From NCBI RefSeq assembly GCF_028768465.1, contig NZ_CP118225.1:5685001-5749000 (forward strand): 64,000 nt of DNA, written 5' to 3'. Shown here piece after piece: positions 9,001 through 62,695 of this stretch (its first letter is position 1; the number at the start of each line of letters is the position of its first letter). The notes under the pieces are model-generated. The model worked only from the letters and a program-made list of their open reading frames with translations, searched no databases and was not told the origin of the DNA. A program made the position numbers and the translations under genes. Source of the DNA: Rhodopirellula sp. P2 (GTDB lineage: Bacteria > Planctomycetota > Planctomycetia > Pirellulales > Pirellulaceae).

Positions 9001-12000
9001 GGCATCGTCGACGCCGACGTACAAATCACCGACGCCGATGATTTGCACACAGAATCCGTCACCATTGAACTGACCAACGGCAAGGCGGGTGACATTCTGA
9101 ACGTCGACGTCGTTGCCATCGAAGCGTTGGGGATCTCCGTCTCGGGAGTGCCAGCCGGCGAATTGACCGCCGACGGTACGATCACGTTGACTCTCACCAG
9201 CGACACGCCTGAATCCGTCACGCACGATGACTATGAATCGGCATTGAAGCTGATCACGTTCGAAAACACATCCGACAATCCCGATGTCACCGACCGAACG
9301 TTCACGTTCGTCCAAAACGATGGCGAAATGGACTCGGCTACCGAAAACCTGATCGTCAAAGTCCATGCGACCAACGACGCTCCCGTCGTTACGATTCCGG
9401 TTGGAGACGCGGTCACGAGCTACGATTTTGAAGGCGGCACGGCGTCCGGCGTTGGTGGCGGACCAGCTATCACTGTCAACGCGCCGGTCACGATTGACAG
9501 CGGCAGCGGCAACGGTGGTAGCAGCGGATTGCTATTTCCCAATGACAACGTCAACTCGGCGACCCACCCAGTGAGCATCAGCTCGATCCCGGGCGTTGCC
9601 ACATCAGGCGAGTTTTCGTTCGCAGCGGATGTCCGGTTTGACGCTGGCAGCGGCGACCGATTCTGGGAAACCATTTTCAGTTTCGGTGGTGGGGCGAACG
9701 ATAACAACGTCTACTTGGGCCGGGTTGGATCGACTGACAACCTGCAGGTGACCGTCTACGACGGTCCGGCCGAACTGTGGAACATTACCGTGACCGATGC
9801 GCTCGACGGAATTGAGGGCGAGTGGCACCACTACGCCGTGACGCTCAGTTCAAGCGGACAATTGAGTCTTTACATCGATGGAGCCAGCGCGGGATCCGTC
9901 AACGTCGGAGGCACGCCGGACTATTCGACTTGGGATGAAAACTACATCGGCAGCTCGAACTGGACGTCTGACAAGCGTCTTCAGGGAGCGATCGACAACA
10001 TTGCGATCTTCGATTCGGTGATCTCGGCGAGCGATGTTGCAGACCTTGCCTCCGGCATGTCGGTCGCTGGCGGGACACTTCAATACACCGAAAATGATCC
10101 AGCCACGGTGGTCGCCCCCGAGATCACATTGTCGGACGTCGATGACACGAATCTGGAATCGGCCACCGTCTCCATCACCAGCGGTCACGTCACAGGCGAA
10201 GACGTGCTGGAATTCACCAATCAACTCGGTATCACCGGATCCTGGGATAGTGCAGCCGGTATCCTCACACTGACGGGAACGGCAACGGTCGAGCAATACC
10301 AAACAGCACTTCGTAGCATCACGTACGAAAATACGTCCGACAATCCAGACACAAGCGATCGGACAGTCAGTTGGACGGTTAATGACGGATCGCTCGACAG
10401 TGCCACGCAAACGAGTGCGATCGAAATCACCGTCGCAAACGACGCGCCGAGCATCGACATTACCGGCGACATGACTCTGTCATCGATCACCAAATACCAG
10501 ACTGACAACGATGGTCAGTCTGTGGGAGCCATGCTAGCGAGTGCTGGAGGCGATCGCATCACGGACGTGGATGCGAGCGACCCCGAAGGGATTGCGATCA
10601 CTTCTTTGGACAGCGGAAACGGCACTTGGCAGTACTCCACTGACGATGGCGGCTCCTGGACGAACATCGGATCGGTCAGTGAGTTGTCCGCGCTGCTGCT
10701 GCGAGACTCAGATCGTGTTCGCTTCATTCCCAACGGAACCAGCCCCACTACCGCCAGTATTGACTTTCAGGCCTGGGACCAGTCCTCGGGTGCCGAAGGC
10801 TCAAAGGTCGACATCTCGACCAATGGCGGGACGACTGCCTACAGCTCGGCAACGGAGACCGCGACGATCACGGTTGTTGATATCAACTCCGCGCCGGTGC
10901 TCGACGACACGCAAAGTCCGTCGCTCGATACGATCGACGAAGATGCCGGTGCGCCATCCGGAGTCGTCGGAACGCCCATTTCCTCCCTCGTCGACTTCGC
11001 TACGCCAGCGGGTGAAAACGACAATATCACGGATGCCGACAGCGGTGCCGGTTTGGGGATTGCGATCACCGCAGTGGACGACAGCAACGGCAGCTGGTTC
11101 TACTCAACGGACAATGGCAGCACTTGGAACGCGATGGGGACAGTCAGCGAATCGAACGCCCGCCTGCTGGCCGATGACGGCAGCACACGTCTCTACTTCC
11201 AACCCAACGCGGACTATCACGGCACGCTTACCCATGCGATCACCTTCCGAGCTTGGGATCAAACGAGCGGTACCAACGGTGGCACGGCGGACACTAGCAC
11301 CGAAGCGGGAACTTACCTAGATACTTTCAGTACAACGTCCTACAGTCAGAACAACGGATCACTCTCGTGGTCAACCGACTGGATCGAAAACGATTCCTCC
11401 GGCGGCGGTGCCACTAGCGGCGACTACTTTGTCGCCGGCGGCCAGCTCAACCTTAGCGAGGCCAACGGCGGTCGCTATATCTATCGCGAGGCCAATCTAG
11501 GTGCTGCGACCTCGGCCACGCTCTCGTTCGATTTGACAGCTAACAATTTGGTTGGCGGAGGCAATTTCCGCATCCAAGTTTCCAGCAACGGTGGCAGCAG
11601 TTGGACCACATTGGAAACCATAGCTGCAGGCAATAGTACCGGCACCAAGAGTTATGACATTTCAGCGTTCACATCCGACCACACTCAAATTCGCTTCATC
11701 GATAGCGACAACGGTGGTGGTAAAGAGATCCGAGTCGACAACGTACAAATTGCGGCCGCGTTCTCGCTATCGGGTGGAAGCACTGCCTTTTCGTCAGATA
11801 CCGACACGGCCAGTTTGGTCGTCAATGCTATCGCCGATACTCCCTCAGTAACTGATACGACAACGAACGAAGACACTCAGTCGAGCTCGGGTTTGGTGAT
11901 CACTCGCAGTGCATCCGATGGCATTGAGGTTTCGCATTACAAAATCTCGGGCATCACCGACGGCACCCTGTACAAGAGCGATGGCGTCACCGAAATCGCC

Positions 12001-53461: not shown

Positions 53462-53725
53462 CCGATTTCTCCAAGTTAAAAGTAGGGCCCCCTATCCTAC
53501 TCGCACCAGAACTCACTTTGGATCAACCTGCCTGGTGCACGCCAGCTAAAATCAGAAATGCCCCCCCCCAACGTCACGCCACCCCCACAAGACTTCTCCT
53601 GATATTTCGCTGCTGCCTCGCCGGCTGGTTGGTTGCCACCACCACATTGTTCGCCCGTGCCGTTGAACCCTTCCAGGTCGACATGGTGGTCCCTTCTCAG
53701 ACGCCATGAGCTCGGCCCAACCAGA

Positions 53726-54118
53726 TCATGCTTGATCGCCGCTTCGCTCATCTTCCCAGTGACCGACCAAGCCGCCCGGTGCATACATCCACATCACGAC
53801 CAGTTCTTCCTCACTGTCATTGATCAAACTGTGTGGCACATTGGATGGAATGTAGATCGCCGTGGTCGCCGAAACCTTCTTCACTTCATCTCCCACACGC
53901 ATCTCACCTCGTCCTGAGAGAACGACATAAACCTCCTCGTTCACGTGTGCGTGCTCGGGGATCGAGCCCTTCGGAAAAAGCGTCGAATGGCCGACCGCGA
54001 ATTTCTCGACGGGCAGCCCTTGCGGTCCTCCCAAAATGCAACTGCGACGACCTGCAGGAAAGACCTCCCCTGGGGTTTCTTCGACGCGGATGGTTTGCAT
54101 CGGCTTCTCACTCAACAT
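53726..54118 (-). CDS. cupin-domain protein
   Basis: 130 residues, a single cupin. Motif 1 contains PKGSIPEHAHVNEEVYVVLSG (metal-binding His, His, Glu) and motif 2 is PSNVPHSLINDSEEE (third His). There is no signal peptide. Single cupins bind a metal and act as small dioxygenases, isomerases or sensors; nothing here tells which. The second methionine (54100, MQTIRVEE) has GAG in a better position and may be the real start. It lies 42 bases after the methyltransferase gene on the same strand, consistent with one operon. Confidence 0.85.
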   Translation of the reverse strand: MLSEKPMQTIRVEETPGEVFPAGRRSCILGGPQGLPVEKFAVGHSTLFPKGSIPEHAHVNEEVYVVLSGRGEMRVGDEVKKVSATTAIYIPSNVPHSLINDSEEELVVMWMYAPGGLVGHWEDERSGDQA

Positions 54119-54160
54119 GTTTGCAACACCCGCGATCCTGGCGGGCTTCGATCGAGCGAA

Positions 54161-55168
54161 TCACTTGATTGCGAGGACCGCGTCGACGGGGGCACCGGTG
54201 ACTCTCCCGGTCACTTCACGGAAACCAGCACGGCGCAAGATGAGTTCATACTCGGCCAGAGTCCGCTCGCGCCCCTCGGTGCAAACCAGCATGTTGAGGT
54301 CTTGCATTTGGCCCCAATCCGGCCCGCCCCGATCGTCTTGGATCAAAATCTCCGCTAGCAGCAAACCGCCACCATCGGGAAGACGCCCGTGAATCTTGGC
54401 CAACAACCGATCGATCTTTTCATCGGACCAATCGTGCAAGATGCGGCCCAACGACATCAAATCCGCTTGGGGCAGATCGTCATCAAAGAAGTCTCCACCA
54501 ACCACATCGATTCGCTCGGACACAGTGGACTGGGCGACAATTTCTTTGGTCAACGGAATCACATCCGGCAGATCAAACACGGTCGCAGTCAGCGAGTCAT
54601 AAGCTTCACAAGCAGCGATCGACAGGTGCCCCGTCGCTCCGCCAAGGTCCACCAAGTGCTTGAACGGGGAGAGGTCCACGGCACGCACGACCTTGGGTGA
54701 ACTGATCACACCATAACCATGCATCCCCATCAAGAACTCACGCATGGCGGCTTCGTCAGCAAAGAAACTGCTGAAGATGGGTTGCTCCCAACCGTAGGCA
54801 TCCTTCCATCGATGCGACCCTTCGCGAATCGCGTTTTCGAAATGCGTCCACAACTTCCAGCTCACATCGTTGCTGAATTTGATGTAGCCGGTCATCCGGT
54901 TGGGGCTGGTCGTTGTCAGCAACTCCGACGCGAGTTCCGTGTTGTTGTACAAGTCACCTTCTCGCGAAAGCAGGTCCATGCCGACCAACCCATCGAGCAA
55001 GCGTTTCATCGCGGCGGGATCACACTTGAGTTCCGTCGCCGACTCGGATGCCGACCGCGGTCGTTGCTCCATCAGATCAAAGACGCCCAGCTCAACGGCA
55101 GCGAACATGACTTTCGAAAAACGAAAGCCGTTGATGTATTGGAGAACTGGCGTGGGATCGACGGGCAT
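54161..55168 (-). CDS. SAM-dependent O-methyltransferase (HIOMT/DmpM family)
   Basis: 335 residues. The N-terminal winged-helix dimerisation domain (about 10-95: GFRFSKVMFAAVELGVFDLM...RLLDGLVGMDLLSR) is followed by the SAM site VDLGGATGHLSIAACE, GGDFFDDDLPQADL, and the catalytic-base region LGRILHDWSDEKIDRLL, in which the His of LHDW is expected to deprotonate a substrate hydroxyl. C-terminal EYELILRRAGF is typical of the family. Members methylate phenols or polyketide hydroxyls. Downstream of the isocitrate dehydrogenase gene by 90 bases and just before the cupin. Confidence 0.9.
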   Translation of the reverse strand: MPVDPTPVLQYINGFRFSKVMFAAVELGVFDLMEQRPRSASESATELKCDPAAMKRLLDGLVGMDLLSREGDLYNNTELASELLTTTSPNRMTGYIKFSNDVSWKLWTHFENAIREGSHRWKDAYGWEQPIFSSFFADEAAMREFLMGMHGYGVISSPKVVRAVDLSPFKHLVDLGGATGHLSIAACEAYDSLTATVFDLPDVIPLTKEIVAQSTVSERIDVVGGDFFDDDLPQADLMSLGRILHDWSDEKIDRLLAKIHGRLPDGGGLLLAEILIQDDRGGPDWGQMQDLNMLVCTEGRERTLAEYELILRRAGFREVTGRVTGAPVDAVLAIK

Positions 55169-55258
55169 GGTGAGCAGTTGATTCGCAGGAAAGAGTCACG
55201 GTGGGAAACCACCGAGCGACCAATCGTTGCGAACTGCTCGGCGGTGGCAACAGTCTTG

Positions 55259-57484
55259 TCAAACGCCTTCGATGATGGCGTTGAGCGTTTCGCTGGGTCG
55301 CATTGCGGCAGTGGCTTTCGTCTCGTCAGGATGGTAGTAGCCACCCAGATCGATTTCGACGCCTTGAGCATCGTTCAGCTCGCCGACAATCTTTGCCTCG
55401 TTGTCCGACAAGGCTTTCGCGACCGACTCGAACCGTGCTTTCAAACCTTCATGACCGGATTTTGCCAAGGCTTCGGCCCAGTACAACGCCAAGTAGAAAT
55501 GGCTGCCGCGGTTGTCAAGTTCGCCGACTTTTCGCGACGGTGATTTGTCGTTGTCGAGGAACCGCCCTGTGGCATCGTCAAGTGTTTTGGCCAAGACCGC
55601 GTACTCTTCGTTGCCAGTCTTTTCAGCCAAGTCTTCGAGAGAAACCGCCAAGGCGAGGAACTCACCCAGCGAGTCCCAACGCAAGTGATTCTCGCTGACG
55701 AATTGCTCGACGTGCTTCGGAGCCGATCCACCGGCCCCGGTTTCGAACATGCCACCGCCAGCCAGCAACGGAACGATCGACAGCATCTTGGCACTGGTGC
55801 CAAGTTCCAGAATCGGGAACAGGTCGGTCAGGTAATCTCGCAGCACGTTGCCGGTGACGCTGATCGTGTCTTTGCCTTCCCGAGCCCGGCCACAAGCGTG
55901 ACGGGTTGCCTCGGCAGGTTCCAAGATTTGGATGTCCAACCCAGCGGTGTCATGATCTTTCAGGTACTCGTTGACCTTGCTGATCAAGTTGCGATCGTGG
56001 GCTCGGTTTTCATCCAACCAAAAGATCGCGGGAACTCCGGTGGCACGCGAACGCGAAACCGCCAAACGCACCCAGTCTTTCACGGCGACATCCTTGGTTT
56101 GGCAAGCACGCCAGATGTCACCTTTCTCGACGTCGTGACTCATCAATTCTTTGCCAGCCGATGTGACCACTCGAACCTTGCCGTCCGCAGGCACCCGGAA
56201 TGTCTTGTCGTGGGAGCCGTACTCTTCGGCTTTCTTGGCCATCAACCCGACGTTGGCGACGCTGCCCATTTGGGTGACGTCAAACTTTCCGTTGGCAATG
56301 CAATCGTCGATGGTGGCTTGGTAAATGCCCGCGTAACAACGATCCGGAATGACCGCTTTCATGTCGTGCAGTTTTCCATCGACTCCCCACATCTTGCCAC
56401 CAGCGCGAATCGCGGCGGGCATGGATGCGTCGATGATCACGTCACTGGGCACATGCAAGTTCGTGATGCCTTTGTCCGAATCGACCATCGCGATGTCAGG
56501 CAATCCGGCTTGGATTTCGACCAAGGTTCCCTCGACCAATGCCCGCTGATCCGCTGGGAGGTCCTGGACTTTGGCAAACACCGACGCGAGACCTTGATCC
56601 GTGTCAACGCCCGCGGCAGCCAGCACCTCACCGTGTTCTTGGAACAAACGGTCGTACATGACACTGACGCAATGCCCGAACAGAATCGGGTCACTGACCT
56701 TCATCATCGTCGCTTTGAGGTGCAGTGAAAACAGCACGCCGCTGGACTTTGCGTCCGAGATTTGCTCCGCGTAAAACGCTCGCAATTGACGAACGCTCAG
56801 ACGAGCCGAATCGACGATCTCGGCCGCTTCGACATGGAGTCCGTCACGGAGAACCGTGACTTTTCCCGTCGAATCAACATGTTCAATCCGCAGAGATTCA
56901 TCGGAATCCATGATCACCGATTTTTCACTGCCGTAGAAATCGCCTTCGCTCATATGAGCCACGTGCGTCTTCGAATCGGCTGACCAATCGCCCATCGAGT
57001 GCGGGTTCTTCTGAGCGTAGGCTTTGACCGGGGCGGCAACGCGACGGTCAGAATTGCCTTCGCGGAGGACCGGATTGACGGCACTTCCGAGCACCTTGGC
57101 GTAGGCCGCACGAACAGATTTCTCGTCGTCGGTTTGAGGGTCCTGAGGGAAATCGGGGATGGCGTATCCCTGAGCCTGCAGTTCAGTGATCGCTTCGACC
57201 AATTGCGGGATCGAGGCGCTGATATTGGGCAGCTTGATCACGTTGGCTTGCGGTTGATTGACCAACTCGCCGAGTTCCGCCAGTGCATCGGGAACCTGCT
57301 GGTCCGCCGGCAGTCGGTCCGCGAATCCGGCCAAGATTCGAGCGGCCAAGGAAATGTCCTTGGTCTCAAATGACAGGCCACTGCCGCGGGTGAACGCTCT
57401 CAAGATCGGCAGCAACGAACGAGTCGCCAGGGCGGGGGCTTCATCGGTGTGCGTGTAAACAATCGCGGCAGTTTCGCTGGGCAT
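55259..57484 (-). CDS. icd: isocitrate dehydrogenase, NADP-dependent, monomeric type
   Basis: 741 residues, the length typical of the monomeric IDH-II family. Conserved segments: [14 protein letters not shown] at the start, [29 protein letters not shown] (substrate-binding), [20 protein letters not shown] and LATRSLLPI. It oxidatively decarboxylates isocitrate to 2-oxoglutarate and makes NADPH in the cytoplasm. The gene interrupts the ACP/desaturase and methyltransferase genes on the same strand, with a 160-base gap upstream, so it probably has its own promoter and need not be part of the pathway. Confidence 0.97.
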
Positions 57485-57645
57485 TCCAACCTCGTCAGGA
57501 CAAAGACCCCGAAATCACGGGAATCAAGAAGAATTTGCGACTGAAAGCCTGCGGCCCCAACGCTCAATTGTCAATGCCGGCGCGGCTTCAACGGTCCGAC
57601 TGCAACCAAAAACCGCAACCTAGGACGCACGATCAGCCTTCACCG

Positions 57646-59040
57646 TCAAACCTGAAGGCAGTGCCGGTTCGCCATGCTGATGCCACTGACGATCGCCCCC
57701 ACAATCCCCACAAAGCCCTGGTCCGTCCCGCACAAGAAAACATTGGGCAGGTGTGTCGTGCCATCGAGCTGCTTGTCAGGTGCACCATAGACAGCGCCAT
57801 TGTCGTGCCAGGTGAACCGACGAATGGTTTTCGGAGTGAAAACGTCGGTGTCGATGACTCGCGAACGAAAATCGGGCATGAACCGAACGGCCGACGCGAC
57901 AGCGTCGTCGTACTGGGTCACCTTCTCGGCCCGATACTTTTCCTCGGGCAATTCCGACCACAGATCGTGATTGGCAAGCGTGGTGATCCGAACGACGCCG
58001 TCGGGCAAATCGCCTTCTTCCGCGTCGTAGATGTAATTGTTGGGGCTGCAGATGACTCCTGTCCGAGCATCACACAATGAGTCGTTGGGGCGTTCCCAGT
58101 GAAAGTTCGGGGAGTCGTTGTAGAACACGATCGTGCGGTCGAAGCCCAAATCTTTGGGTTTGCAATCCAGCACGCTGATCGATTCAATGAACGACAGTTT
58201 GCCAGCCTTGGCGACATCGGGTTCGGTGATGTCGTCGCACATCCGCATGGTTTCGACCGTGCCCGCGGACGAAAGGATGCGTTTGGCCCGCAACTCGGTG
58301 CCATCGTCCAGCACGACTCCCACGGCTTGGCCGTTTTCGACGTGAATGTTGGACACGCCGCTTCGGAGCTTGAGTTCGCCGCCCAGCCCACGAAATTTGC
58401 GGACCAAGTTCTTCAGGATGACTCGCACACCTTTGTAAGGACGCCCGAAACCTTCCAGGTAACACGCTCGGAACATGATGCAGAACTGGCCGAAGTCCAT
58501 GTCGTTTTCACGAGCGTTGCCGTACCACATCAGCGGGCACAGCAGCATCTCGATCAACAACGGGTCCGACAGGTGCTCGGCCATGACCTCGCGAGCCGAA
58601 CGCATGAACTCGGGCGCGTCGCCGTCCATGTCGCTGTAGTCGAGCAGCGAACCACACAGGCTGCGAAAACCATCGATTTGGTCAGGGAAGCGAGACTTGA
58701 TCTCGCTTTCCAGCATCGCGATGTCGTTGTTGAAATCCAATTCCACACCGGGAAAGCGGATCGAGGATCCGTTTTGCTCCGCCAGCTTGAAATCTTCCCA
58801 GCCAAATCGCAATTGTCGAATGAGTTTGGCCAGCGGACCTTTCTTGTCGCCCTTGCGAGCGAAGTTGGTCATCGCGTGCAGCCCCACGTCATAATCGCGG
58901 CCACCCATTCGATAGAACGAGTTCAGACCACCGATCGTGTAGTGCTTCTCAAGGATGCAAACGCGTTGGTCAAAGTGGGCCAGCCGAATGCCAGCGGCCA
59001 ACCCGCTCATCCCTGCGCCGATGATGATGGTGTCGTACAT
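57646..59040 (-). CDS. CrtI-like FAD-dependent desaturase/isomerase
   Basis: 464 residues. FAD-binding N-terminus YDTIIIGAGMSGLAAGIRLA, followed by VCILEKHYTIGGLNSFYRMGG, as in phytoene desaturases and carotene isomerases. The C-terminal FAD segment is LFLCGTDQGFVGIVGAIVSGISMANR-like (NVFLCGTDQGFVG). No signal peptide. Position next to an acyl carrier protein and a beta-ketoacyl synthase suggests an acyl or polyene chain rather than a carotenoid as substrate. Carotenoid modification remains possible, since no other crt genes are visible to decide. Confidence 0.88.
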   Translation of the reverse strand: MYDTIIIGAGMSGLAAGIRLAHFDQRVCILEKHYTIGGLNSFYRMGGRDYDVGLHAMTNFARKGDKKGPLAKLIRQLRFGWEDFKLAEQNGSSIRFPGVELDFNNDIAMLESEIKSRFPDQIDGFRSLCGSLLDYSDMDGDAPEFMRSAREVMAEHLSDPLLIEMLLCPLMWYGNARENDMDFGQFCIMFRACYLEGFGRPYKGVRVILKNLVRKFRGLGGELKLRSGVSNIHVENGQAVGVVLDDGTELRAKRILSSAGTVETMRMCDDITEPDVAKAGKLSFIESISVLDCKPKDLGFDRTIVFYNDSPNFHWERPNDSLCDARTGVICSPNNYIYDAEEGDLPDGVVRITTLANHDLWSELPEEKYRAEKVTQYDDAVASAVRFMPDFRSRVIDTDVFTPKTIRRFTWHDNGAVYGAPDKQLDGTTHLPNVFLCGTDQGFVGIVGAIVSGISMANRHCLQV

Positions 59041-59047
59041 ACGAAAG

Positions 59048-59135
59048 CCGCTAGCTGTTAGCGATTAGCCCCTAGCTTTGTGGGTGAGAATCATCGGAAT
59101 GCGAAAGGCTAGAAGCTAGTCGCTAGTCGCTCGTG
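59048..59135. repeat. imperfect inverted cluster of GCTAG-type short repeats
   Basis: Units such as GCTAGCTGTTAGCGATTAGCC (left) and GGCTAGAAGCTAGTCGCTAGTCGC (right, shown only in part here as a direct doublet of TAGTCGC) face each other across the gap between the desaturase start and the ACP stop. The two halves are roughly inverse to each other. Confidence 0.6.
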
Positions 59136-59140
59136 AGCTC

Positions 59141-59392
59141 TCAAAGATCCTTCATCTTGGGTTCCAGGTACGTGACCGTGGAATGCATGCTGGCGAGATG
59201 GCCGTAATCTTCCTCTGGAATCTGCACGCGGTGACGCTTGCGAAGTTCCATCACGATGTCCAAAAAGTCCATCGAATCCAATTCCAATTGCTCGCGAAAC
59301 GCCTTCTGGTCGTCCAGGTTGTCGAGGTCCTCATCAGGAGAAATGTCGTCGAGGATATCGATGATTTCTTGGCGAATTTCGGCAGGAGTCAT
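59141..59392 (-). CDS. acyl carrier protein
   Basis: 83 residues. The four-helix acyl carrier pattern is present, with the phosphopantetheine attachment Ser in ELDSMDFLDIVMEL (DSM). It has the acidic composition usual for ACPs. The start is ATG 59392 (MTPAEIRQEIIDIL); the frame upstream is open but not protein-like. Different enough from housekeeping AcpP (GADSLDTVE motif) to be a pathway-specific carrier. It lies 100 bases ahead of the desaturase gene and downstream of the ketosynthase on the same strand. Confidence 0.9.
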   Translation of the reverse strand: MTPAEIRQEIIDILDDISPDEDLDNLDDQKAFREQLELDSMDFLDIVMELRKRHRVQIPEEDYGHLASMHSTVTYLEPKMKDL

Positions 59393-59763
59393 GAAAGGAA
59401 GCAGGGATGCGAGAGAAACGGGAGGGAAAACACGTCCGTGTCCCACTCGGCGGAGCAACCGCCACCGCGGGATGGAGTAGTTTCGGCGGCATTGGGATTC
59501 GACACAAGGGGCACCACGCGGCACCCCGTGCAATTGAAACAGGACAGATCGCCGCAGGGTGGGGAAAGTGGCTCAGGGCCACAGGGCCACAGGACCAGGG
59601 GATCAGGGGATCAGGGGACGACACACCTCATTTCAATTCACCCTCCCTCTGGGAGGGTCGAGCGAAGCGAGGGGAGGGCCGAGCACTGAAATTGCAAATT
59701 GACAATCGCAAAGTGCAAATTTGAAATGGGGTGCTGACTCGACGTTGGCGAGCGACTCCGCGA
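59393..59763. other. intergenic region with several repeats, between ketosynthase and ACP genes
   Basis: Contains a run of CAGGG-type repeats (about 59573-59618, including three copies of GATCAGGGG-like units), a 7-base perfect hairpin CCCTCCC-TCT-GGGAGGG (59641-59657), a CGAGCGAAGCGAGG stretch and an AT-rich inverted region (59690-59726). No coding frame looks real. Confidence 0.55.
59641..59657. repeat. GC-rich hairpin, possible terminator of the ketosynthase gene
   Basis: CCCTCCC and GGGAGGG pair perfectly across a TCT loop, about 107 bases after the ketosynthase stop. No U-run follows on the minus strand. Confidence 0.45.
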
Positions 59764-61023
59764 TCAAACGCGGCCGACGATGACGACGGAGTTGATTCCC
59801 AACATGCCGAACGAGTTGTTCAGGATGTAATCGACTTGTGGCTTGTCTTGAGGCTCGTTGAGCACCAAACCGGGCAGATCGCACGCAGGATCCAGTTCAT
59901 CGACATTGATCGTGGGATGCACGACTCGATCGCGGAACGCCATCAAGTTGCCTGCCAATTCCAGTGACCCAGCGGCTCCCATCGCGTGACCGATGTAACT
60001 CTTGGTGTTGTTGATTCGAACGTTTTCACATTTCCCAAACACGCTTCGCAACGCCGCACACTCTTGAATGTCGCCGCTGTTCGTTCCCGTCGCGTGCGTG
60101 CTGACGATGTCGATTTGGTCCGCTTCCAAACCAGCTCGTTTGAGAGCCTTCTGCACGCACTGAGCCTGACGTTCCGGGTTGGGCAACACGAAATCGGTCG
60201 CGTCGGTGTTCATCGCGTAACCAACCAATTCGCCGTGAATCTCGGCTCCGCGAGCCTTGGCATCGCTGAATCGCTCGAGCGTGTACAAACAGCCGCCTTC
60301 GGCGACCACAATGCCGTTTCGCTTTTGGTCGAACGGGCGAGACGCCAGCGTTGGATCCGCGTGAGTCGCCAACGCGTTTTGGCTGTTGAAACTGGCGAAG
60401 ATTCCGAACGTGTGAATGCTTTCGCTGGTTCCCCCCGCGATCGCCACATCGCACTCGTTCAACCGCAGCATCTGGGCACCTTGAATGATGCCGGCGTTGC
60501 CAGCCGCACAGGCGGCACCGATCGTGTAGTGCGGGCCAGTGATTTGCATGTTCAGTGCAATTTCGCCGGCGGGATTGTTTGCGACCGTGCGAGGGTTGTG
60601 GTGGTGTGACCAGCAACTCGTGTCGTAGTCGAACCCTTTGATCACATGGATTTCGTTTTCGGTTTCGACGTTGCCGTGCTCGGTCACGCCGACGTAAATG
60701 CCGACTCGATCCTTGTCCACGTTTTCCCAGTCCAACCCCGAATGCGCGACCGCTTCCTGAGCCGTGTAGACACCGACGCTGCCGGCACGCGTGCCCCGCC
60801 GAATGTCTTTTTTGGATTGGTACTTTTGGGCATCGAAGTCACAGACCCCGGCCAGAGTTTCCCCGAAGTAACGGATCTCGTAGGGCTGCACGCCGCTGCG
60901 TTTTTCAAGCAATGCCTGGCGAAAGGAACCCCAGTCGTTGCCATTGGGCGAAGTCAGACCGACGCCGGTGATGACAATGCGTTGGTCGTCGGGAAGTTGA
61001 GAGGCGAGGTGAGGGGCGATCAC
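59764..61023 (-). CDS. beta-ketoacyl-ACP synthase (FabF/KAS II type)
   Basis: Condenses an acyl chain with malonyl-ACP. It has the Cys-His-His set: Cys in TIGAACAAGNAG, His in STHATGTNSGD and His in KSYIGHAMGAAG, so it is a full condensing enzyme rather than a chain-length factor. The fold begins RIVITGVGLTSPNG. From the GTG at 61023 the protein is 419 residues, the family's normal size; the ATG at 61206 would add 61 residues without thiolase-fold character. It is the first gene of the ACP/desaturase group on this strand. Confidence 0.9.
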   Translation of the reverse strand: MIAPHLASQLPDDQRIVITGVGLTSPNGNDWGSFRQALLEKRSGVQPYEIRYFGETLAGVCDFDAQKYQSKKDIRRGTRAGSVGVYTAQEAVAHSGLDWENVDKDRVGIYVGVTEHGNVETENEIHVIKGFDYDTSCWSHHHNPRTVANNPAGEIALNMQITGPHYTIGAACAAGNAGIIQGAQMLRLNECDVAIAGGTSESIHTFGIFASFNSQNALATHADPTLASRPFDQKRNGIVVAEGGCLYTLERFSDAKARGAEIHGELVGYAMNTDATDFVLPNPERQAQCVQKALKRAGLEADQIDIVSTHATGTNSGDIQECAALRSVFGKCENVRINNTKSYIGHAMGAAGSLELAGNLMAFRDRVVHPTINVDELDPACDLPGLVLNEPQDKPQVDYILNNSFGMLGINSVVIVGRV

Positions 61024-61224
61024 GGATGGTGCGGCCAAAATGAGCGATTGGTGCGTGGATGGCGACCCAAAAACGTAGCAATCCGAGCACGTTTCCTCAA
61101 CGGGCAATGCCAGAGGCAATCTCGAATTTGCGGCGAAGTGCCCCGCCGAAACGTTGAAAAACACCTGCGAACAAAATGATTGAGCAGGGCGAGATGCCCT
61201 TGCCAAGCACCTCGCCTGGGTGGC

Positions 61225-62589
61225 TCACTCGGTGCGAATCGAAATGCTGCGGGCGTGAGCCGTCAGGCCTTCTTTCTCAGCAACCGTGATCACATCGGGA
61301 GCGATCACTTCCAATGCCGAGCGATCAAACTGAGTCACACTGCCCGACCGCAGAAAGCTGTTGGCGGACAACCCAGCGGCCCAACGGCAGGTGCCTCCCG
61401 TCGGCAAAACGTGACTGGGGCCGGCCGCGTAATCGCCCAGTGCGACCGGGGTGTGGTGCCCTAAAAACGCTGCTCCACTGTGCCGAATCTTTGCAATCAA
61501 CGATTCCGGCTCGCGAGTTTCGATCTGCAAGTGTTCCGGGGCAAACGAATCGGTCAACACGCAGGCATGGTCTGCATCGCGAGCCAAAATCAGTGCCCCG
61601 AAATCGGCCAGAGCATCCCGAGCCAAATCGCCGCGTTCCAGCTCGTCGAGCTGTTTCGCCAATTCCGTTTTGACATTGTTCAGCAGCGTCTCGTCCCAGG
61701 TGATCAAGATCGCCGACCCGGGTGAATGTTCGGCTTGAGCCAACAAATCCGACGCGACAAACGAGGCGTCCGCGGAATCGTCTGCGATCACGATCACTTC
61801 GCTGGGCCCGGCAAAGGAGTCAATGTCGACGGTTCCAAACACGTGCTTCTTCGCCAAGGCCACGAACAAGTTTCCAGGACCGACGATTTTGTCGACGGCC
61901 GGCAAGGCATCACAGCCATACGCCATTGCGGCGACCGCCTGAGCCCCACCGCACCGATAGACTTCCGTGATTCCCAGCTCGTGACAGGTGGCCAGCATGT
62001 CGGTGTTGTACGCACCAAACGGAGTCGGAGGCGCGACGACCGCGATCTCATCGACGCCGGCGACCTGAGCCGGAATCGCGGTCATCATCACAGTGGAAGG
62101 GTACGCGGCAGCGCCACCAGGAACACAGATCCCCACCCGTGGGATCGGCACATAACGCTGGGTCAAAGAAACGCCGGGTCGGGGCGTGATGGTGACGTCG
62201 CGGTGCAAAATTGCCGATTGAAACGTCGCAATGTTTTCGCGAATGCGGCCGATGGTCTCGATCAGCTTGGGATCCGCTGCCGCATGGGCAGCCTTCAAAT
62301 CCTGCTCCGGCACTCGCAGTGTCTCAGCCGTCAGGTCGGCTCCATCCAGCGCCTTGGTGTATCGCAGCAAAGCCTCGGTGCCCTGAGCCTGAACGTCGTT
62401 GCAAATCGTTTCCACGACTTCAATCGGCGAGAGCGCCCTGCCGAACACTTTCAACGTCAATTCCCGACCGCGGGGGCTGACCAGATCACCACGAGGGCTC
62501 AACTTTTCACGCAAAGCAGCCAGCGTTTCCGCGGCATCCCCCGAGGAGGCATCGCGAGCATCAACGGTTTGGATTGAAAATTCAGGCAC
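61225..62589 (-). CDS. hisD: histidinol dehydrogenase
   Basis: About 454 residues. Oxidises histidinol to histidine in two NAD-dependent steps, the last of histidine synthesis. Conserved features: [76 protein letters not shown] (catalytic Glu-His), and [21 protein letters not shown]. The start is either GTG 62589 ([11 protein letters not shown]) or TTG 62607. It stands alone, without other his genes in view, and is divergent from the membrane glycosyltransferase. Confidence 0.95.
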
Positions 62590-62695
62590 AGCAGCGACGC
62601 GGAACAAACAGAGGAAGGGATCGACAAATTCGGATCGGCCACCAAAGCCGTGCGGTCAGTTTACCGAGCCAACAACCTTGGGCTAGGCTTGGCCC

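Follow-up and report, generated by a model that had tools for sequence, protein, structure and literature searches.

A ketosynthase, an acyl carrier protein (ACP) and a flavoprotein are encoded side by side in the planctomycete Rhodopirellula sp. P2, within a 64,000-nucleotide window (positions 5,685,001 to 5,749,000 of contig NZ_CP118225.1, which measures 7.29 Mb); gene coordinates are window positions unless given as contig positions. The FabF-like beta-ketoacyl-ACP synthase (KAS; 59764-61023, minus strand; Pfam PF00109/PF02801) has 419 amino acids (aa) and a GTG start. It is followed on the same strand by the ACP (59141-59392), a protein of 83 aa with an ATG start at 59392, an LDSMD phosphopantetheine site and a PF00550 score of 26.4 bits (cut-off 20.8), and by FAD1 (57646-59040), a flavoprotein of 464 aa from the CrtI/CrtISO superfamily, whose best NCBIfam model is carotenoid isomerase, below cut-off. 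The intergenic distances are 371 bp between KAS and ACP and 100 bp between ACP and FAD1. Flanking genes, also on the minus strand, are hisD (61225-62607), a monomeric isocitrate dehydrogenase (IDH; 55259-57484), an O-methyltransferase (OMT; 54161-55168) with a Methyltransf_2 domain, and a cupin-domain protein (53726-54118). An initial annotation had placed the named genes of this region on one strand, and this was confirmed.

Alignment to solved FabF places Cys172, His310 and His346 of KAS at the FabF catalytic triad, which is intact by alignment in all 24 orthologues from the fetched regions (a stricter motif test passed only 20 of the 24); LDSMD is kept in 26 of 26 ACP orthologues from the same source. 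KAS and ACP are encoded as two proteins of one domain each and lack the multidomain ketosynthase-acyltransferase-ACPn-ketoreductase (KS-AT-ACPn-KR) architecture of Pfa-type synthases. When 53500-61400 was scanned for promoters and terminators, sites were no more frequent than in shuffled sequence (2 vs 2.2; 8 vs 9.6), which is uninformative on co-transcription. Short tandem-like text (cccctgatcc, ggccctgtgg) occurs between KAS and ACP, and gcgactagcgactag-like repeats between ACP and FAD1 (all within 59041-59763); both resemble intergenic repeat invasion.

Which of these neighbours belong together can be judged from loci of FAD1 relatives, of which the best 80 of 584 named ones were examined; in 66 of these at least 2.5 kb of sequence precedes FAD1, and in 56 at least 5 kb follows it. 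Among the matches listed, the named FAD1 proteins nearest to that of the window come from a Rhodopirellula metagenome-assembled genome (90% identity), Neorhodopirellula pilleata (89%) and Rhodopirellula baltica (87%). Directly upstream of FAD1, the ACP is present in 47 and KAS in 43 of the 66 loci, while across the 80 a second flavoprotein (FAD2) is found in 31, a FabZ-like dehydratase in 25 and a FabI-like reductase in 22. At the cut-offs used, relatives of IDH, OMT and the cupin occur in 0 of the 56 loci, ten of them from close relatives (FAD1 78-89% identical), and in 0 of the 80 overall; in 37 other regions the sole further match is one weak cupin (30% identity, about 7 kb off, region L054). 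Relatives of hisD appear in 2 of the 80 loci, several kb distant. The module at the locus is thus KAS-ACP-FAD1, and the other neighbours look incidental, IDH, OMT and cupin being absent from all 56 related loci at those cut-offs. The cupin also scores above the Pfam DMSP_lyase gathering score (35.6 vs 27), Cupin_2 being the better fit, and since it adjoins the OMT the two could form a small separate unit.

A draw of 199 Planctomycetota genomes was searched with the individual proteins, using E-value thresholds of 1e-20 for FAD1, 1e-40 for FAD2, 1e-80 for KAS, 1e-50 for the FabI-like enzyme, and 1e-20, 1e-40 and 1e-20 for OleA, OleC and OleD, respectively. FAD1 was matched in 43 genomes and counted in 42; the excluded genome (G123) is 59% complete and has a single partial match of 28%. 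FAD2 is found in 42 genomes, identical to the FAD1 set, and its threshold falls in a wide gap, between the weakest counted match (7e-128) and relatives in anammox genomes (5e-25 to 2e-29). KAS orthologues and FabI-like proteins each occur in 41 genomes, all inside the 42, and at these thresholds in none of the 157 others. The only member lacking KAS, G184, is 82% complete, and in the only one lacking the FabI-like gene, G151, the cluster runs into a contig end. OleA was found in 72 and OleC in 77 of the 199 genomes, including all 42 of the FAD1/FAD2 set, and OleD, searched in the 42 only, is present in every one. KAS, FAD1, FAD2 and the FabI-like enzyme therefore constitute one co-inherited set, accompanied by OleA, OleC and OleD, with the ACP and the FabZ-like dehydratase as its neighbours. 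In one member, G156, two equal-score FAD1 matches lie inverted and 1.1 kb apart on contig C37 (7610-8947, minus; 10077-11414, plus), which may reflect recent duplication or a fault of assembly.

Physical linkage within the set is variable. Pairs no more than 3 kb apart were observed for KAS-FAD1 in 29 of 41 genomes, FAD1-FAD2 in 27 of 42, FAD2-FabI in 23 of 41 and OleC-OleD in 30 of 42, so that the conserved KAS-ACP-CrtI-like order anticipated by the initial annotation is borne out by the first of these pairs together with the upstream ACP and KAS counts. All seven genes (KAS, FAD1, FAD2, FabI-like, OleA, OleC and OleD) form one chain with links of up to 15 kb in 15 of the 42 genomes. Region L059 has the order OleA-OleB-OleC-OleD-possible regulator-KAS-ACP-FAD1-FAD2-FabZ-FabI, the possible regulator being MarR-like with a score just under cut-off, and G121, from another genus of the same family as the study genome, holds OleA, FabI, FabZ, FAD2, FAD1, ACP, KAS, OleD and OleC together. 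Five regions (L052, L055, L057, L062 and L105) have a FabG-like gene close to FAD2, and an OleB-like gene accompanies OleA/C/D in 12 of 37 phylum regions and in 1 of the best 80 named loci. At the other extreme, seven of the 42 genomes have all of these genes more than 15 kb from one another. All but one of the seven are draft assemblies (40 to 220 contigs each), the exception being G024, with just one contig; G184, without a KAS match, is among them. Retention of the genes together without linkage favours a shared function over hitch-hiking. In N. pilleata, FAD2 (L191:5918-7363, minus) and KAS are encoded on opposite strands some 0.8 kb apart, an arrangement intermediate between the clustered and the scattered state.

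In Rhodopirellula sp. P2 itself the full set is spread over six places. Besides the window genes, FAD2 lies at contig positions 5908273-5909709 (73% identical to FAD2 of G121), FabZ next to FabI at about 2102287-2103650 (58% and 67% identity, respectively), OleA at 6688094-6689152, OleC at 2834503-2836194 and OleD at 6169496-6170377. The initial annotation had proposed that KAS, a dedicated ACP and the FAD enzyme work together on a chain carried by the ACP, with partners elsewhere, and the dispersed set agrees with this. Its remark that no ketoreductase or dehydratase is visible holds locally, but overlooks the FabZ-FabI pair elsewhere in the genome. At L092:9034-11411 the FAD2 frame overlaps an apparent ABC-transporter ATPase gene by 4 bp, and the two might be cotranscribed. 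Two further ketosynthases (L095:9231-10565 and L096:9381-10790) carry Glu and Asp where the catalytic Cys would stand, as do two R. baltica paralogues tabulated by Rattray 2009 (PMC2649909); the window KAS is not among these Cys-substituted proteins. An apparent stand-alone group of KAS, dehydratase-like, ACP and dehydratase-like genes (L094:8644-11598; G000:C1 about 2625143-2628097) adjoins an ABC-transporter ATPase, and its KAS is 35% identical to that of the window.

OleA, OleC and OleD are enzymes of head-to-head hydrocarbon synthesis, in which OleC is a beta-lactone synthetase, OleD a 2-alkyl-3-oxoalkanoate reductase and OleB a beta-lactone decarboxylase. The OleA of this genome matches solved chain 3row, which is taken to be Xanthomonas OleA, at 8e-52, with alignment of the NACL cysteine and LEP glutamate, presumably the active site and its partner, and scores 466 bits against NF006720 (cut-off 285). 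The two best models for OleD, and the second and third best for OleC, are olefin-pathway enzymes. Ole genes have already been reported in planctomycetes (PMC7158056, PMC10176705), while the words hydrocarbon, olefin and alkene are absent from the accessible text of a 2025 review of planctomycete metabolism (PMC12078418). In Shewanella, Ole enzymes turn a Pfa-derived 16:4 chain into 31:9 (PMC6463001, PMC4882568), and other 'pfa-like' synthases were tied to ole genes by Shulse and Allen 2011 (PMC3098273).

FAD1 and FAD2 resemble CrtISO and CrtI in superfamily, in their N-terminal FAD-binding region and in length (about 460-480 aa). They differ in falling far under the carotenoid cut-offs, and in co-occurring with KAS and the FabI-like enzyme across the draw. 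FAD1 scores 96 bits against the carotenoid isomerase model (cut-off 587) and 53 bits, or 30 in another search, against the CrtI family (cut-off 238), and FAD2 scores 88, 92 and 93 bits against carotenoid models with cut-offs of 587, 238 and 550; by curated cut-offs, neither is a carotenoid desaturase or isomerase. In a flavoprotein tree FAD1 falls into one group (support 89/86), and FAD1 and FAD2 appear to be separate, coherent groups. The tree has long outgroup branches with long-branch warnings and was used only for this separateness; it omits three proteins missed by a motif filter (L112, L233 and L236), of which L233 is a true CrtI-family protein.

The initial annotation had also pointed to ladderane lipids, which prompts comparison with anammox bacteria. 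Nine genomes of the draw were taken as anammox from a hydrazine-synthase-alpha domain, an assumed anammox marker, in frames of 809-844 aa; the domain by itself is unspecific, occurring in 37 of the 199 genomes, including the FAD1-positive G036. Flavoproteins of the nine are 25-27% identical to FAD2, and at the thresholds used no match to FAD1, FAD2, KAS, OleA or OleC was found in them. A ketosynthase pair stands beside the flavoprotein in five anammox regions (L225-L228 and L231); in L225, the only one aligned, one ketosynthase has Val/Asn/Glu at the triad, with all three catalytic residues lost. The same triad is tabulated for Kuste3606 (Rattray 2009, PMC2649909), and the flavoprotein next to the L225 ketosynthase is presumably the Kuste3607 equivalent; the match and the adjoining flavoprotein therefore support the anammox assignment. 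Regions L229 and L230 have apparent radical-SAM, MMPL and CoA-ligase genes beside the flavoprotein, named by reading the sequence only. The window KAS is 29-30% identical to the ketosynthases of one anammox region. E. coli with Kuste3607 or Kuste3336 made no lycopene, and heterologous expression of ladderane enzymes was unsuccessful (PMC4790861). With separate tree groups (subject to the long-branch warnings) and different partners, the window genes do not belong to the anammox ladderane clusters. Those clusters are not this module, and the superfamily and a presumed ACP-bound substrate are what the two have in common; of the ladderane link, the shared superfamily stands and nothing closer does.

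The best explanation of the window genes is that KAS-ACP-FAD1 is one fragment of a dispersed pathway. It is proposed, with a probability of about 0.7, that a polyunsaturated acyl-ACP is built by stand-alone type II enzymes, and that Ole enzymes join two such chains into a hydrocarbon of the C31:8/C31:9 type, the presence of Ole genes in the set indicating the product class. KAS would elongate the chain on its dedicated ACP, as expected from family knowledge, with ketoreduction usually left to housekeeping FabG, probably here too, and in some relatives perhaps to the FabG-like gene in the cluster. FabZ would dehydrate the chain; FAD1 and FAD2 would set double-bond position or geometry, as flavin isomerases or desaturases, a job done elsewhere by FabA or Pfa dehydratases; and the FabI-like enzyme would reduce selected double bonds. 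Head-to-head condensation of two chains would fall to OleA, after which OleD and OleC, joined by OleB in genomes that have it, would yield the very long polyunsaturated alkene.

Parallels exist for parts of this scheme. Shewanella OleABCD likewise has OleA, OleC and OleD and, in all likelihood, an ACP-bound polyunsaturated chain as substrate (PMC6463001), but here separate type II proteins and two CrtISO-like flavoproteins would supply the chain, rather than a Pfa megasynthase. For two other bacteria, Desulfotalea psychrophila and Kuenenia stuttgartiensis, a related scheme was put forward by Rattray 2009, in which type II fatty acid synthesis (FASII) genes and phytoene-dehydrogenase-like proteins form an anaerobic pathway to polyunsaturated fatty acids (PUFAs) or hydrocarbons (PMC2649909). 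D. psychrophila is described there as containing C31:8 and C31:9 with no other known PUFA pathway, and as having three phytoene-dehydrogenase-like open reading frames, two with the consecutive tags DP2405 and DP2406; these two, known here by tag only, are candidate orthologues of FAD1 and FAD2. That paper also refers to such hydrocarbons from planctomycetes; by title, references 19 and 20 in it are planctomycete descriptions. It differs in that 'olefin' and 'head-to-head' are absent from its accessible text, and in that the anammox flavoproteins are distant and have other partners. Literature joining phytoene-dehydrogenase-like proteins to Ole genes was not found among open-licence sources, whose coverage is partial and which make this a weak absence.

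Alternative explanations fare less well. The initial annotation had counted the OMT and cupin as cluster parts, the OMT capping the chain with a methyl group. The common strand, short gaps and real Methyltransf_2 and cupin domains speak for such a local cluster, but the absence of IDH, OMT and cupin relatives from all 56 related loci, with the weak L054 cupin as sole match elsewhere, leaves it highly improbable, and it was rejected. A similarly slim chance attaches to housekeeping fabF and acpP lying beside a carotenoid desaturase. The intact FabF triad of KAS and the CrtI superfamily membership of FAD1 fit this, and the module shares the enzyme classes of type II fatty acid synthesis (FabF, AcpP, FabZ and FabI). 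It is contradicted by the scores, KAS reaching 319 bits against a fabF cut-off of 494 and FAD1 at best 53 against the 238 of crtI_fam; by a separate locus with fabG-like, ACP and fabF-like genes, to whose fabF the window KAS is 35% identical; and by true CrtI-family proteins elsewhere in the genome (599 and 406 bits vs the same 238). The module's KAS and FabI-like paralogues occur in only 41-42 of the 199 genomes, KAS at 41 being far from near-universal, unlike housekeeping type II fatty acid synthesis. KAS, ACP and FAD1 are a dedicated set, not a housekeeping one; thus neither a lack of conserved neighbourhood nor a carotenoid enzyme beside housekeeping fabF/acpP, the outcomes that the initial annotation had set against its own proposal, was found. 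A ladderane-type pathway is very unlikely in its turn: candidate anammox clusters also pair ketosynthases with phytoene-dehydrogenase-like proteins (PMC2649909), but the nine presumed anammox genomes offer only distant FAD2 relatives and no set genes at the thresholds used, one ketosynthase of the L225 pair is without its catalytic triad, and L229 and L230 have other apparent partners. This pathway was rejected on the 25-27% identity, the separate tree groups and the differing partners.

A less remote, though still improbable, rival is that the same enzymes make a polyunsaturated or polyene chain for another lipid, such as a membrane PUFA, a pigment-like polyene or an ester, with Ole merely co-inherited or a partial user. 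Ole genes without the module (OleA in 30 and OleC in 35 of the 157 remaining genomes) and the seven genomes with no two genes within 15 kb favour it; none of the 42 lacks OleA, OleC or OleD at the thresholds used, and Ole genes cluster with the module in 15, which count against it. The occurrence of Ole genes without FAD1/FAD2 also tells against the hydrocarbon pathway proposed above, and means that the dependence is one-way. Further points weigh on the same side. The product is read from genes alone, and like the flavin chemistry is inferred; the 42 genomes carry 9 family labels and are related, not 42 independent events; FabZ and ACP are tied to the set as neighbours, the genome-wide counts covering KAS, FAD1, FAD2, the FabI-like enzyme and OleA/C/D; and linkage is looser nearest home, with KAS in 7 of the 12 close relatives that have at least 2.5 kb upstream. 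OleC and OleD fall under the curated cut-offs of olefin-specific models (543 vs 900 and 370 vs 580 bits), and OleB, which Shewanella has (PMC6463001), was not found in the stretches of the study genome that were read, no genome-wide OleB search having been made. Multidomain polyketide synthase (PKS) genes elsewhere in the genome might also feed OleA. One encodes a protein of 2935 aa (L250:3877-12684; G000:C1 about 772376-781183) with domains reductase-KS-KS-AT-ACP-KR-dehydratase; it is secondary-lipid-synthase-like and could be another polyene source.

Overall, the initial annotation is partly supported: its chain builder of KAS, ACP and FAD enzyme stands, but it overlooked FAD2, FabZ and FabI and, most importantly, the Ole genes. 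What would be new in the proposed hydrocarbon pathway is that two CrtISO-like flavoproteins serve as double-bond isomerases of an ACP-bound chain, replacing the FabA or Pfa dehydratases, with the product joined by Ole enzymes. This would give Pfa-independent C31:9-type hydrocarbons in many Planctomycetota lineages, from genes co-retained after scattering, and the chances of this fuller claim are judged about even. How C31:8 and C31:9 are synthesised in bacteria without Pfa synthases was left open in 2009 (PMC2649909), and a precise list of genes, inherited all or none across the draw, supplies testable candidates in cultured planctomycetes, including R. baltica and N. pilleata, both FAD1-positive. 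If the flavoproteins do act on ACP-bound chains, they would represent a new way of placing double bonds, a chemistry also relevant to the search for ladderane enzymes. What keeps the pathway genes together seems to be co-retention, not linkage, and the pathway would explain how such planctomycetes could make oily hydrocarbons without the usual enzyme.

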